Below, piece by piece: positions 22,642-29,090 of a stretch of DNA of 64,000 nucleotides. The first letter of the stretch is position 1. Each line of letters begins with the position of its first letter. Below the pieces are notes generated by a model. The model searched no databases. It saw only the letters and a program-made list of their open reading frames with translations, and was not told the origin of the DNA. A program made the translations under genes and the position numbers. Source of the DNA: Leptolyngbya sp. BL0902 (GTDB lineage: Bacteria > Cyanobacteriota > Cyanobacteriia > Phormidesmidales > Phormidesmidaceae); the NCBI RefSeq assembly GCF_016403105.1, contig NZ_CP046155.1:4087501-4151500 (forward strand), written 5' to 3'.

Positions 22642-23148
22642 ATGCATCCAAAAATTCTGGTTGCCATTGATAACAGTGCCTTTAGTCGCGATATTTTCCA
22701 GGAAGCGCTTGATCTTGCTAAAGCTAGTCAAGGTTGCTTGTTTTTGGTTCATAGTCTTTCTGGGGAAGAAGAAAGTAGTCCCTTACCCATGCAACGGAGG
22801 CTGGACAGTATCTACTGGGCTCCAGGTACCGAAATTAACTTAGACGCCTGGAAAGATGAATGGCATCGCTACGAGGGCGATAGCCTAGATCATCTCAGGC
22901 ATTTAGCTGGAAAAGCAAATGCCATGGGGATAAAAACAGAATTTAGGCAACTCATCGGCAGTCCTGGCCGAGTCATTTGCAAAGCGGCTCAGCAATGGGG
23001 CGCAACGATGATTGTGATGGGCCACCGTGGCCGTAGCGGCCTGTCAGAACTAGTGATGGGCAGTGTCAGCAACTATGTGATGCACCACGCGCTCTGCTCT
23101 GTGCTAGTTCTTAAGCCAGAGGAAGTGATTCGTTCCTCGCTTGCCTAA
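22642..23148 (+). CDS. Universal stress protein (UspA family)
   Basis: 168 residues with a single Usp domain. Seen: KILVAIDNSAFSRDIFQEAL at the start, IIVMGHRGRSGLSELVMGS (the G-2x-G-9x-GS ATP-binding pattern) near the end, and the final HHALCSVLVLKP. The ATP loop is intact, so it is likely an ATP-binding member that forms dimers under stress. It is followed by a strong hairpin at 23165-23208. The signal it responds to cannot be read from the sequence. Confidence 0.92.
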   Translation: MHPKILVAIDNSAFSRDIFQEALDLAKASQGCLFLVHSLSGEEESSPLPMQRRLDSIYWAPGTEINLDAWKDEWHRYEGDSLDHLRHLAGKANAMGIKTEFRQLIGSPGRVICKAAQQWGATMIVMGHRGRSGLSELVMGSVSNYVMHHALCSVLVLKPEEVIRSSLA

Positions 23149-23439: not shown

Positions 23440-23900
23440 CCATAAAATCTGTGGAAAACCAGCTTTTTTCTGGGGAAAACCCGTGGAAAACCCGTGGAAA
23501 AAAGTGACTTAATTGGTGTTTTAAATAAATTTTCCAAGCCCCTGTGGAAAACTACGTTTTTCCTCCACATCTTTTCCACAGGGGCTTGAATAATCAAGGC
23601 CAAGCACCATGGGCGATCCCAGAGTTTTCCTCAGTTTCCACAGGCCCTACTACTACTACTATTCTTTTAAAAAAATTCTAGATAAGAAGCTCAATGCCAT
23701 CAACCTAAAAAACAGGAAGTGCCATTGAAGATTGGGGAAAATAGTGTTAGATTGATGCAGCTTCACCCAAGAATCAGTAAAGTTTCCATCCTAAAGGCGT
23801 TTCGCTTAGGATTCCAGCTTTTTCCAGATCAGCACTCAATGTGTTATTTCACAGACATTCCACCTGTGGAGTAGGATGCTGGATTAAAAAATGAGATACT
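23440..23900. other. oriC: Chromosomal replication origin (oriC) upstream of dnaN
   Basis: This non-coding stretch before dnaN carries DnaA boxes of the TTTTCCACA/TGTGGAAAA type at 23450-23458, 23482-23490, 23493-23501, 23543-23551, 23572-23580 and 23634-23642 (last one GTTTCCACA). Two of them lie in a perfect 17-bp inverted repeat (23535-23551 with 23572-23588). The final box is directly followed by GGCCC, four TAC trinucleotides and TAT (23648-23662), then A/T-rich DNA to about 23685. That order matches the box, GC cluster, DnaA-trio and unwinding element known from Bacillus. In Synechococcus elongatus the origin also lies beside dnaN. Function here is inferred. Confidence 0.82.
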
Positions 23901-23999
23901 GCTACAGCTAGCCCAGTTCCACAACGGTGGAAGTTGGTTGGTTGCCTCTCTCCATCGCTAGTTGTCATCCTCCTGTCATTCGACGTCAGTAAACCCACC

Positions 24000-25130
24000 A
24001 TGAAGTTTGTCTGTTCTCAAAGCGAGCTGAATAATCAACTCTCATCGGTAAGTCGGGCTGTGGCCTCCCGACCCAGTCGCCCGGTTTTGGGCAATATCCT
24101 GGTGACGGCAGATGCAGGCCAGCAAACGGTCACGCTAGTGGGTTTTGACGAGGTGTTAGGGATTGAGAGCTGCTTCCCGGCCCAGGTAGAAGCATCTGGT
24201 GTGCTGACGCTGCCCGCTAAGCTGTGGGGCGATATTGTGTCTCGGCTGCCCAATGACGACGTTCGGCTCGAAACTGATACCGATGGCACCACCGTGACGA
24301 TCACCAGCGCCTCTGGCCGCTATGAGGTGCGTGGCCTGAGCGCGGAGGACTACCCCTCCCTGCCCGCCGTTGAGGAAGGTGACACCGTTGCGCTCTCTGC
24401 TGAGTCGTTGCTCCACGGTCTAGAGGGCTCGCTGTTTGCCACTAGTGGCGATGAAACCAAGCAGGTATTGACTGGGGTACACCTGCTGTCAGATGCGGAC
24501 TGTTTAGAATTTGCGGCTACCGATGGGCACCGCCTTGCCGTGGTTCAGACTGTAGATGAGACGGGCACTCCCACCCCTCAGATGGATGTGACTGTCCCCG
24601 CCAAAGCCCTGCGCGAACTGGAGCGCATGATTAAGGGGCATCCGTCCAATGAACCCGTACAGGTGCGGCTGGATGAAACCCAGGTATTGTTTGACCTCGG
24701 CAACCAAAAGCTCACGACTCGCCTGCTGGAAGGGCAGTACCCAAACTATCGCCAACTCTTGCCGAAACAGTTTGCCCGCCAAATCACCGTAGATCGCGAT
24801 GGCCTGATCAAAAGCCTGGAACGCATTGCGGTGCTGGCCAGCCAAAAAAACGATATCGTCAAGCTCTCCCTCGATGCAGCCCAACAGTGCGTGGCTCTAT
24901 CCGTGGAGGCCCAGGAAGTGGGCAGTGGCCGCGAGGAACTGGCAGCTCAAATCAGCGGCGATGATCTGGATATTGCCTTTAATGTGCGCTATCTGCTAGA
25001 CGGTTTGAAAGCCTTTGACAGTAGCCAGGTTCAAATGCAGTGCAATGCAGCTACCAGTCCAGCGGTGCTGAGCCCCCTGGGAGAGGCCAAAATTACCTAC
25101 CTGGTCATGCCTGTGCAAATCCGCAGCTAG
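24000..25130 (+). CDS. dnaN: DNA polymerase III sliding clamp (beta subunit)
   Basis: 376 residues from ATG 24000 (MKFVCSQSELNNQLSSVSRA). An upstream in-frame start would add a hydrophobic lead not seen in the family. The three clamp repeats are visible, with SRPVLGNILVTAD at the front, DGHRLAVVQT in the middle (the TDGHRL motif) and the LGEAKITYLVMPVQI ending. It encircles DNA and tethers polymerase and repair proteins. Its position between two DnaA-box clusters marks the origin region, and a terminator follows at 25274. Confidence 0.97.
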   Translation: MKFVCSQSELNNQLSSVSRAVASRPSRPVLGNILVTADAGQQTVTLVGFDEVLGIESCFPAQVEASGVLTLPAKLWGDIVSRLPNDDVRLETDTDGTTVTITSASGRYEVRGLSAEDYPSLPAVEEGDTVALSAESLLHGLEGSLFATSGDETKQVLTGVHLLSDADCLEFAATDGHRLAVVQTVDETGTPTPQMDVTVPAKALRELERMIKGHPSNEPVQVRLDETQVLFDLGNQKLTTRLLEGQYPNYRQLLPKQFARQITVDRDGLIKSLERIAVLASQKNDIVKLSLDAAQQCVALSVEAQEVGSGREELAAQISGDDLDIAFNVRYLLDGLKAFDSSQVQMQCNAATSPAVLSPLGEAKITYLVMPVQIRS

Positions 25131-25131
25131 C

Positions 25132-25277
25132 TGTGGAAAACTCCCCACCCTGTTGAAAAGTCAGCCCCTCTGTGGAAAACTTGTCAAACAGTTGAAAAAG
25201 CTAGGGTTCTAGGGATTGGCGATCCCCCTGTGGAAAACCTACCCGTGCTGTTGAAAACTTTAGAATCTTGTTGAAAA
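25132..25277 (+). repeat. Phased DnaA-box array downstream of dnaN
   Basis: Seven 9-mers in one orientation start at 25132, 25151, 25171, 25190, 25229, 25249 and 25269. They read TGTGGAAAA (25132, 25171, 25229), TGTTGAAAA (25151, 25249, 25269) and AGTTGAAAA (25190). Spacing is 19, 20, 19, 39 (one missing unit), 20 and 20 bp, nearly two helical turns, so all sites face one side of the DNA. Confidence 0.85.
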
Positions 25278-26847: not shown

Positions 26848-28620
26848 CTACATCCCAGGGCTGGCCAGGTTGCGGAAACGGGTAAACTGCGGCTCAAACA
26901 ACAGCTTGACGGTGCCCGTGGGGCCATTGCGATGCTTGGTAATAATCACCTCAGCAATGCCGCGATCTGGCGTATCAGGATCGTAATACTCCTCACGGTA
27001 GAGCATCATAATCAAGTCAGCGTCTTGCTCGATGGCTCCAGAGTTATGGGATACAATGCCGTCCGCCAACCAAGATGCTGGCCCTGGAACCGTCAAGTCA
27101 TACACAGCCTCTTCCCCAGCAGGTTCAATCGAAATCACCTCATCCCAGAAAATATCAGCGGTTTCCTGGGCATCCTGGGCATCCTGGGCAACTGCGAGAT
27201 AACTTCCTGCGCTCAATTCCTTAAGCCATTGCCAGCCGTCGAGGGTATATAAACGATGCTCTGCGGTAGCCCGAATTTTACGTCCGCTGGCGGTGGTCAA
27301 GGTATAAACGGGGCGGATGCCTACTTCCCAAACCATCTCCGCCTGGGCTTGAATGAGCTTGCCGTGGCTATCTAGACTGACAACCTCAGGGGTGTGACCG
27401 ACTAAGTCGCGAATAGGAACTCGACGACCATCGGCCAGGATCACTAAGGTGTCTCCGGTAACGCACTCGCGCAAATCGCTCATCATAGGGCGCTTGTTGG
27501 TGCGAGATTCGACCCCCCGGCTGAGCTGCGAGAGGGCAATGATGGGGACGTTTAACTCACGGGCCAGACCCTTGAGGGAGCGGGTCATTTTGGAAAGTTC
27601 CTGCACCCGGTTATCGCCGCCGCCTTCCATCAGTTGCAGATAGTCGATTAGCACCAGACCCAAGGCACCGCCCTGTTCGGCCTGTAAGCGACGGCAGCGA
27701 GACCGAATTTCGGTGACGGAAATGTTCGGCGTATCGTCAATAAAAATCGGCATTTGTGACAACACACTGATAGCATGGCCCAGTTTTTCCCACTCATTTT
27801 GGGCAATGCGTCCGGTGCGGAGGCGGCTGCTTTCCATTTCCACTTCGCTGGAGAGCAAGCGATAGACCAGTTGCAGCTTCGACATTTCTAGGCTGTAGAT
27901 GGCCACGGGCAGCTTTTGCAAAGCGGCAATGTTGCGGGCAATGTTCAACACGAATGACGTCTTGCCCATTGACGGCCTCGCCGCCGTAATGATCAGGTCA
28001 GAGCGCTGGAAGCCCTGGGTCATGGCATCGAGGTCGTAGAAGCCGCAGGGCACACCGGGCAGCACCACGCCGAGGGAGCGCTGCTCGATTTCGGCGAAGG
28101 TGTCGATCAAAATATCCGACGTTGCCGTGAGGCCCGCCTGGGGGCGCACCTGGGTAATGCCAAACAGCTTTTGCTCCGACTGATCTAACACCTTTTCTAG
28201 GGGAACCGTCGTATCGTAGCCGAGCTGGGAAATTTCGCCCCCGGTTTGGATCAGCATCCGCCGAGTGTACTTGTCCATCACCAGGGTGGCGTACTGGTCG
28301 ATGTTGGCGGCGCTAACGGTGCGGTCAATCAGTTGGGCGATGCGGGCTTGACCCCCCACTTTCTCCAGCTTGTCGTGATCCTTCAGCCACACGGTAATGG
28401 TGAGCAAATCCGTGGGCTGTCCCTTGGCGTGGAGTTCGAGGGCGGCGCGGTAAATTTCCTTGTGGGCACCGATGTAAAAGGCGTCGGGGGTGAGAATTTC
28501 CATCACCCGACCAATGGCCTCCGGGTCGAGCAGTACGCCGCCAAGAATAGCTTCTTCGGCCTCAATATTTTGGGGCGGCAGTCGGTCGTTGACCGCATCA
28601 AACTGCAAGTTTTGTACCAT
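26848..28620 (-). CDS. dnaB: Replicative DNA helicase DnaB containing an in-frame mini-intein
   Basis: 590 codons from ATG 28620 (MVQNLQFDAVNDRLPPQNI). The N-terminal domain is followed by the RecA-type core with Walker A ARPSMGKTSFVLNIARN and Walker B LVLIDYLQLM. The chain is interrupted after MSDLRE by a 141-residue intein (27043-27465) and resumes SGAIEQDADLIMMLYREEYY. Removing it gives a normal DnaB of 449 residues. The protein unwinds the replication fork. It lies downstream of rplI on the same strand, as in many bacteria, and is close to the origin. Because splicing is needed, helicase activity depends on the intein. Confidence 0.96.
   Translation of the reverse strand: MVQNLQFDAVNDRLPPQNIEAEEAILGGVLLDPEAIGRVMEILTPDAFYIGAHKEIYRAALELHAKGQPTDLLTITVWLKDHDKLEKVGGQARIAQLIDRTVSAANIDQYATLVMDKYTRRMLIQTGGEISQLGYDTTVPLEKVLDQSEQKLFGITQVRPQAGLTATSDILIDTFAEIEQRSLGVVLPGVPCGFYDLDAMTQGFQRSDLIITAARPSMGKTSFVLNIARNIAALQKLPVAIYSLEMSKLQLVYRLLSSEVEMESSRLRTGRIAQNEWEKLGHAISVLSQMPIFIDDTPNISVTEIRSRCRRLQAEQGGALGLVLIDYLQLMEGGGDNRVQELSKMTRSLKGLARELNVPIIALSQLSRGVESRTNKRPMMSDLRECVTGDTLVILADGRRVPIRDLVGHTPEVVSLDSHGKLIQAQAEMVWEVGIRPVYTLTTASGRKIRATAEHRLYTLDGWQWLKELSAGSYLAVAQDAQDAQETADIFWDEVISIEPAGEEAVYDLTVPGPASWLADGIVSHNSGAIEQDADLIMMLYREEYYDPDTPDRGIAEVIITKHRNGPTGTVKLLFEPQFTRFRNLASPGM
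27043..27465 (-). other. DnaB mini-intein (141 residues)
   Basis: Starts with Cys in CVTGDTLVILADGRRVPI (block A), has the block B histidine in IRATAEHRLYT, block F VYDLTVPGPASWLADG, and ends IVSHN, with Ser as the first following residue. All catalytic residues for protein splicing are there: Cys1, His, penultimate His, final Asn, Ser+1. There is no room for a homing endonuclease. A 9-bp tandem repeat (27165-27191, three CCTGGGCAT-type units encoding AQD repeats) sits where the endonuclease would be in a full intein. Confidence 0.93.
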
Positions 28621-29090
28621 GGCAAGTCCGGGGCGGAAGGGGGCCAATATTTAGAGCCCTAGTGTATCAGGCTGGAGAATTTCGGGGCGGTTTGCCTCAC
28701 CCTGTCTGGGCGATGGCGTGATCTGGGCGTGCTGAGTTGGGAAGTGATGGACTTCCACAACTGTGGAACTTTGAAATTCTGATGAATGGATGTCCACAGG
28801 TTGGGGATGATCATCGTCATTGGTACGGGAAATGAATAAAAGGTGAATCCGTAATCAAGTTTGACTGAGTTCGGATTGAGCCAGGGACTGCAAGCGTGAA
28901 GATATCTTCTTCCATGCGTGTCTTTGGCCCTCACCCCCAACCCCTCTCCTTGTGGGAGAGGGGAGCTAGAAAGATTCAAAGTCCCTCTCCCCATGGGAGA
29001 GGGATTTAGGGTGAGGGCTTTCAGGGCATCGGGCTATTGAGGTTATCCCGAACCCAAGCAAGTTTAGTTCAATTGTACTATAAATATTCC
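28621..29090. other. Intergenic region between rplI and dnaB
   Basis: About 470 bp with the dnaB upstream DNA and a complete GGGAGAGG repeat (28927-29018). Two short TGTGGA-like words near 28760-28800 recall DnaA boxes but are imperfect. No gene is seen. Confidence 0.5.
28927..29018 (-). repeat. GGGAGAGG dispersed repeat, minus orientation
   Basis: Same two-palindrome structure as the copy at 11755-11845 but inverted, ending CCCTCTCC and GGGTGAGGG. Confidence 0.8.

Follow-up and report, generated by a model that had tools for sequence, protein, structure and literature searches.

Does the intergenic region upstream of dnaN in Leptolyngbya sp. BL0902 hold the chromosomal origin of replication, and would it be opened by the kind of basal unwinding element (BUS) known from Bacillus? 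In cyanobacteria the GC skew is often flat, so that origins are hard to place there. The locus lies in the window, i.e. the whole stretch of 64,000 nucleotides analysed here (C1 4087501-4151500; the genome comprises six contigs and 4.71 Mb). A preliminary description of this DNA had proposed an oriC with a Bacillus-type BUS. That proposal is well supported by the anatomy of the locus, its uniqueness, its phylogenetic footprint and the intact DnaA of the organism, and the locus is probably the oriC of the chromosome, in use at present and opened as a Bacillus-type BUS.

Anatomy and uniqueness of the locus

The boxes and trios are contained in an intergenic span of 851 bases between a universal stress protein gene and dnaN (Table 1). 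Between positions 23440 and 23900, ten DnaA boxes with at most one mismatch to TTTTCCACA/TTATCCACA were found, three of them exact. The preliminary description had rightly seen DnaA-type boxes but had counted six. The perfect 17-bp inverted repeat with two boxes that it had reported was recovered, and forms the core of a 38-nt inverted repeat (76%). It had read the letters behind the last box as GGCCC, four TAC and TAT; the same letters in another register are GGCC followed by five CTA. Both the DnaA-trio form on the complementary strand and the A/T-rich DNA behind it are present as described.

Table 1. Features of the dnaN-proximal region, in window positions.
Feature	Position	Strand	Remarks
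Universal stress protein gene	22642-23148		other border of the intergenic region ending at dnaN
Minus-strand boxes	23450, 23471, 23482, 23493, 23543, 23733	-	at most one mismatch to TTTTCCACA/TTATCCACA
Plus-strand boxes	23572, 23625, 23634, 23820	+	at most one mismatch to TTTTCCACA/TTATCCACA
Upstream box cluster	23450-23501	-	23450 exact; 23471, 23482 and 23493 with one mismatch each
Inverted repeat, left arm	23535-23551	-	perfect 17-bp repeat; exact box 23543-23551 inside
Inverted repeat, right arm	23572-23588	+	perfect 17-bp repeat; exact box 23572-23580 inside
Tandem co-oriented DnaA boxes	23625-23642	+	TTTTCCTCA (23625-23633) and GTTTCCACA (23634-23642); putative BUS loading platform
GGCC spacer, boxes to trios	23643-23646	+	read from sequence
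Five DnaA-trios, 3'-GAT-5' x5	23647-23661	-	CTA x5 on the plus strand; read from sequence
A/T-rich tract past the trios	23662-23690	none	79% A+T; role in opening and helicase loading presumed from composition
dnaN, DNA polymerase III sliding clamp	24000-25130	+	Pfam PF00712, PF02767, PF02768; ATG at 24000

A BUS is recognised by at least three consecutive 3'-NAN-5' trios, of which 3'-GAT-5' is the commonest, next to boxes with at most two mismatches within 16 bp, which are often in tandem and share one orientation (PMC8287927). Here, five consecutive 3'-GAT-5' trios are present, and the tandem boxes lie 4 bp (second box) and 13 bp (first box) from them. The cluster of TTTTCCACA boxes adjoins dnaN, as expected for a cyanobacterial oriC, and the unwinding element is situated 375 bp upstream of this gene. 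By contrast, dnaA is remote from the locus (C1:1532421).

Counted in 500-bp bins, boxes averaged 0.40 per bin over the window, and the densest bin contained 11. Furthermore, a single run of at least four CTA was detected in 800 kb of sampled chromosome, and it was a run of five, as in the window. When the genome was searched with a strict pattern of 25 specified bases, allowing at most three mismatches, the window locus was the only match. The same pattern reversed, used as a control, matched none of 388 genomes.

The genome also carries a second dnaN (C1:3314136-3315935), about 71% identical to the window gene and fused to an HNH_2 nuclease domain, of which a similar long-frame copy occurs in genome G002; a third, distant DnaN homologue lies at C2:41698. 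The second dnaN (C1:3314190) was also weighed as the site of another origin, but this was rejected, since the strict pattern matched the window locus alone. Elsewhere in the window, the dnaB replicative helicase gene (26848-28647, minus strand) contains an intein (PF14890), and an Rfam search of the window at the gathering threshold gave no match. Directly past dnaN, the minus strand of 25132-25277 bears six exact boxes in which the TTTTCCACA and TTTTCAACA forms alternate, spaced by about 19-20 bp with a single gap of 58. Among 29 loci, this array was present only in those of the window, G002 and G021, with nearly identical spacing, and it may serve to titrate DnaA or as a second orisome site.

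Conservation in the genus and across the class

The window was aligned with 19 genus members, so that 20 of the 24 genus loci were included; G008, G011, G017 and G018 were left out as duplicated, distant or diverged copies. Over the 19 members, mean identity to the window reached 88.3% in the tandem boxes, 88.4% in the trios, and 88.9% (23543-23551) and 90.1% (23572-23580) in the paired boxes of the inverted repeat, with 72.4% in the GGCC spacer. Neighbouring stretches were at 46.8% (between the paired boxes) and 39.0% (23581-23624), those past the trios at 43.2% (23662-23680) and 36.8% (23690-23989), and single 25-bp bins of the flanks ranged from 17 to 58%. This footprint indicates that the boxes and trios are under selection. 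The element is kept in the same order in 24/24 genus loci, with at most 4 mismatches in 26 positions, and the trio was thus never absent from close relatives with the same dnaN locus, a check that had been proposed with the preliminary description.

Within this frame some features vary. The spacer measures four bases in most trio-positive relatives, the CTA copy number differs among relatives, and the distance from the element to dnaN runs from 88 to 1253 bp. In two members (G008:C9 and G011:C12), two copies of the element, about 0.9 kb apart, were found upstream of dnaN. An exact consensus box is missing from the 700 bp upstream of dnaN in 14 of 23 genus loci, in which the trios are nonetheless kept. 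The forms TTTTCCCCA and GTTTTCACA are frequent in genus loci, and the box preference of DnaA has perhaps shifted in this genus.

In addition, the upstream boxes occupy fixed places. Measured from the first BUS box, a plus-strand box was found at 53 bp in 22/24 genus loci, and at 51-56 bp in all 24 when two mismatches were allowed; a box within the latter interval is also seen in 35 of the 41 trio-positive loci from outside the genus. On the minus strand, a box stands at 82 bp in 23/24 genus loci, with a class-wide peak at 82-85 bp. In the window, the boxes at 53 and 82 bp are the exact ones in the right and left arms of the inverted repeat, respectively. Further peaks across the class lie about 155 and 177 bp before the BUS, and minus-strand boxes at about 154-155 and 175-176 bp recur in the genus. 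Two trio-less genomes (G147 and G273) still have plus-strand boxes at 54 and 65 bp. The distances deviate from multiples of 10.5 bp by no more than about a quarter turn, a spacing that may place the upstream boxes roughly on one face of the helix.

Across the class, the strict pattern was present in at least 199 of 388 genomes (completeness of at least 90%). The count is complete per genome and constitutes a lower bound, as the pattern misses real variants: in G042, G045, G048 and G051 the element is present although they are strict-negative. Variant trios occur in strict-negative genomes of family f2. Among 57 genomes, the organism's own included, a dnaN match was obtained in 55 (none in G003 and G014), and inspection by eye revealed, upstream of dnaN, tandem boxes with a CTA-rich run behind them in 53 of these 55 loci. 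The run is degenerate or otherwise spaced in G018, G026, G028, G030 and G033; G054 has no element upstream of dnaN, and in G050 the element stands directly behind dnaA instead.

In other families, the strict pattern disappears. It was found in 0/77 genomes of f28, f31, f32, f34-f37 and f39-f45 (counted by hand), in 0/4 of f22 g30, and it is missing from several genomes of f26 g40 (Thermosynechococcus-like, the name being presumed). Of 80 further genomes, 77 yielded dnaN, and the 1.5 kb upstream was examined in 70, all strict-negative (G078, G086, G137, G165, G230, G291 and G297 being left out). Tandem boxes without trios were present in several genomes of f32, f34 and f15 and in G084 of f24, other loci had scattered boxes, and f36, f37 and others showed no recognisable element; the cut-offs differed between these surveys. 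Among 63 loci of trio-lacking groups, three or more CTA after a box were never encountered and two CTA only twice (2/63), close to the rate in shuffled sequence (12/625); as these groups were picked as strict-negative, the comparison verifies absence and gives no frequency. This measure undercounts, since its box cut-off misses diverged boxes: 19/24 genus loci showed at least two CTA, against 24/24 by pattern comparison.

A set of named species was obtained as the best 80 of 545 loci from a DnaN scan headed by a Picosynechococcus-like protein. Trios were assigned to 6 of these 80, tandem boxes only to 18, scattered boxes to 27 and none of these to 28, one upstream region being too short; L272 ('none') has only 164 bases upstream and L342 ('boxes') is doubtful. 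By the box-then-CTA measure, Gloeocapsa L277 joins the trio group. Picosynechococcus PCC 7117, Synechocystis salina, Microcystis, Crocosphaera, three diatom endosymbionts and most Nostocales of the set are trio-less. Several of the named loci and G-numbered genomes are identical genomes, so that the two sets overlap. Some Nostocales have CTA repeats with a one-base spacer, Rhizonema among them, and two Nostoc/Komarekiella loci keep partial repeats; the erosion of the trios is therefore graded. In a DnaN tree with 68 rows, three changes account for the trio state, and at least two of them are forced by well supported branches; this was a quick tree, with 20 open forks, four long branches and negative rows picked as strict-negative. 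The flanks of dnaA were also searched in trio-lacking families (17 flanks, of which three measured only 400-500 bases): no tandem boxes were found there, and five single box-CTA coincidences were judged by eye to be due to chance. The preliminary description had supposed that cyanobacteria share the Bacillus unwinding grammar: this holds for the genus of the window and for many families, but trios are missing or degenerate in much of the class.

DnaA, GC skew and the probable use of the locus as an origin

The genome contains a single PF00308 match, in a DnaA of 496 aa whose domains I and III-IV match those of B. subtilis DnaA (8btg). I238, I241 and R312 align to I190, I193 and R264 of the latter protein, the residues being I, I and R. 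I193 is taken as a further functional residue. I190 is an ssDNA-binding residue and R264 the arginine finger (PMC8287927). By its sequence, the DnaA is intact and has the ssDNA-binding isoleucine and arginine finger that are looked for in the cognate protein of a BUS.

We infer from this arrangement how the locus would function at the present-day origin. DnaA would occupy the upstream boxes together with the tandem boxes, and its oligomer would grow across GGCC onto the minus strand, tracking the 3'-GAT-5' trios. This strand would be stretched by the oligomer, the A/T-rich DNA would open towards dnaN, and the helicase would be loaded there.

GC skew was sampled on C1 (4.31 Mb) in 40 stretches of 20 kb at even spacing, 0.8 Mb in all, and in 20 stretches over about ±200 kb. 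No significant switch was detected at dnaN, dnaA or the second dnaN in these stretches, a sample of low power: in the 40 samples the skew of the right replichore exceeded that of the left by 0.0035 (P 0.30), and over about ±200 kb the difference was 0.012 (one-sided P 0.12; t-test 0.43). The skew is regular in S. elongatus and irregular in most cyanobacteria (PMC7198777). In G044, a presumed S. elongatus relative that served as regular-skew control, 20 stretches yielded 0.0149, the best rotation falling on the sample beside dnaN; this result was marginal (P 0.045 and 0.06; 0.44 once the choice of rotation was allowed for). Since the control was only marginal, the skew was taken as uninformative and not as refuting. 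A gene-orientation switch at the locus was not significant either, and orientation was equally flat in G044. The skew switch near 23.7 kb named as a check in the preliminary description was therefore not found in the stretches sampled, at low power, and in the terms set there its absence counts against the oriC reading, as do the flat gene orientation and the distant dnaA.

Alternatively, the locus might be a one-time or secondary oriC to which DnaA still binds, in a chromosome that replicates from several DnaA-independent sites, as in some multi-copy cyanobacteria with flat skew, the box cluster now mainly regulating dnaN. The flat skew of the sampled stretches and the genus loci devoid of an exact box upstream of dnaN are in line with such a state, and DnaA-independent, multi-origin replication is established for Synechocystis 6803 and Nostoc 7120 (PMC7198777). 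A regulatory site would have no need of trios, which are nevertheless conserved like the boxes and retained throughout the genus; moreover, genomes that lack DnaA have lost them, as have families with DnaA-independent relatives. We consider this explanation unlikely. A further alternative, that chance or slippage produced the CTA run as a trinucleotide repeat next to a dnaN promoter under DnaA control, is suggested by its simple sequence and variable copy number, but is largely refuted, and is highly improbable, given the constant position of the run after the tandem boxes of many families, the empty reversed control, the genus footprint, the single such run in the sampled chromosome and a distance to dnaN that varies unlike that of a promoter element.

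According to Ohbayashi et al. (2020), replication is DnaA-oriC-dependent in S. elongatus and DnaA-independent in Synechocystis 6803, Nostoc 7120 and PCC 7002, and free-living species without dnaA exist (PMC7198777). Pelliciari et al. (2021) did not expect trios where initiation is DnaA-independent (PMC8287927), and the class-wide distribution agrees with this expectation, of which our comparison is a within-class check. Among the listed titles and abstract openings of open papers on trios or unwinding in cyanobacteria, no such check was found. In the families around Nostoc, Synechocystis, Microcystis and Picosynechococcus, trios are eroded or absent; the published strains were compared through members of the same genus or near relatives, the exact strains (PMC7198777) lying outside the locus set. 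DnaA (PF00308, E 1e-40) was not found in 17/388 genomes, all within the families in which the strict pattern was 0/77. The pattern was present in 0/17 genomes without DnaA against 199/371 with it (Fisher P 3e-6, uncorrected for kinship). The 60 DnaA-positive genomes of the same families also lack the pattern, so that loss of trios does not equal loss of dnaA, and the many DnaA-positive genomes of other families that lost their trios show the element to be dispensable in some lineages. Nor is there a simple match between skew and DnaA dependence, as the skew of Nostoc 7120 is V-shaped in one section of PMC7198777.

Tentatively, then, the trios, and not the boxes or the GC skew, might be the record of DnaA dependence in cyanobacteria: selected within a rigid, class-wide box scaffold in DnaA-dependent lineages, also in those with flat skew like the genus of the window, they would have been eroded more than once (the three changes on the tree), with tandem boxes outlasting them in several lineages and dnaA lost solely where they are gone, and the window genome would be DnaA-oriC dependent despite its flat skew. 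If this is true, an element of 31 bases, recognisable without any skew and worn away around the lineages known to be DnaA-independent, would be a direct and testable marker of species still using DnaA at oriC.

Comparison with known origins

The locus shares with the BUS of B. subtilis oriC the tandem co-oriented boxes, the short GC-rich spacer, the 3'-GAT-5' trios on one strand and the A/T-rich DNA, and the 13 bases from the first, better-placed box to the trios fall inside the published peak of 10-13 bp (PMC8287927). It differs by its five identical perfect trios, by a dnaA that is not adjacent and by the class-wide fixed distances of the flanking boxes. In cryo-EM, a co-oriented box pair directs DnaA onto the trios (PMC10721633), and the layout here suggests a similar, box-pair-directed loading.

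Two cyanobacterial origins can also be compared. The oriC of Cyanothece ATCC 51142 is likewise intergenic, adjoins dnaN and has TTTTCCACA boxes, which are protected by DnaA domain IV; it differs in having three boxes only (PMC4674748), and the Crocosphaera/Cyanothece loci of our set are trio-less. The BUS of S. elongatus also adjoins dnaN, and in the presumed relative G044 (2.7-Mb genome) tandem boxes, four bases and CTATTACTACTG are found 141 bp upstream of dnaN; the regular GC skew of S. elongatus (PMC7198777) differs from the window genome, where none was detected. In vitro, the DnaA of S. elongatus opens the BUS of its own origin, boxes and trios being required, and a BUS was predicted in 1755/2070 origins under a looser definition than the strict pattern used here (PMC8287927). 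A BUS mechanism in cyanobacteria is thus not new, the unwinding of the S. elongatus BUS having come first; the erosion of the trios and the fixed scaffold of boxes go further than that published mechanism.
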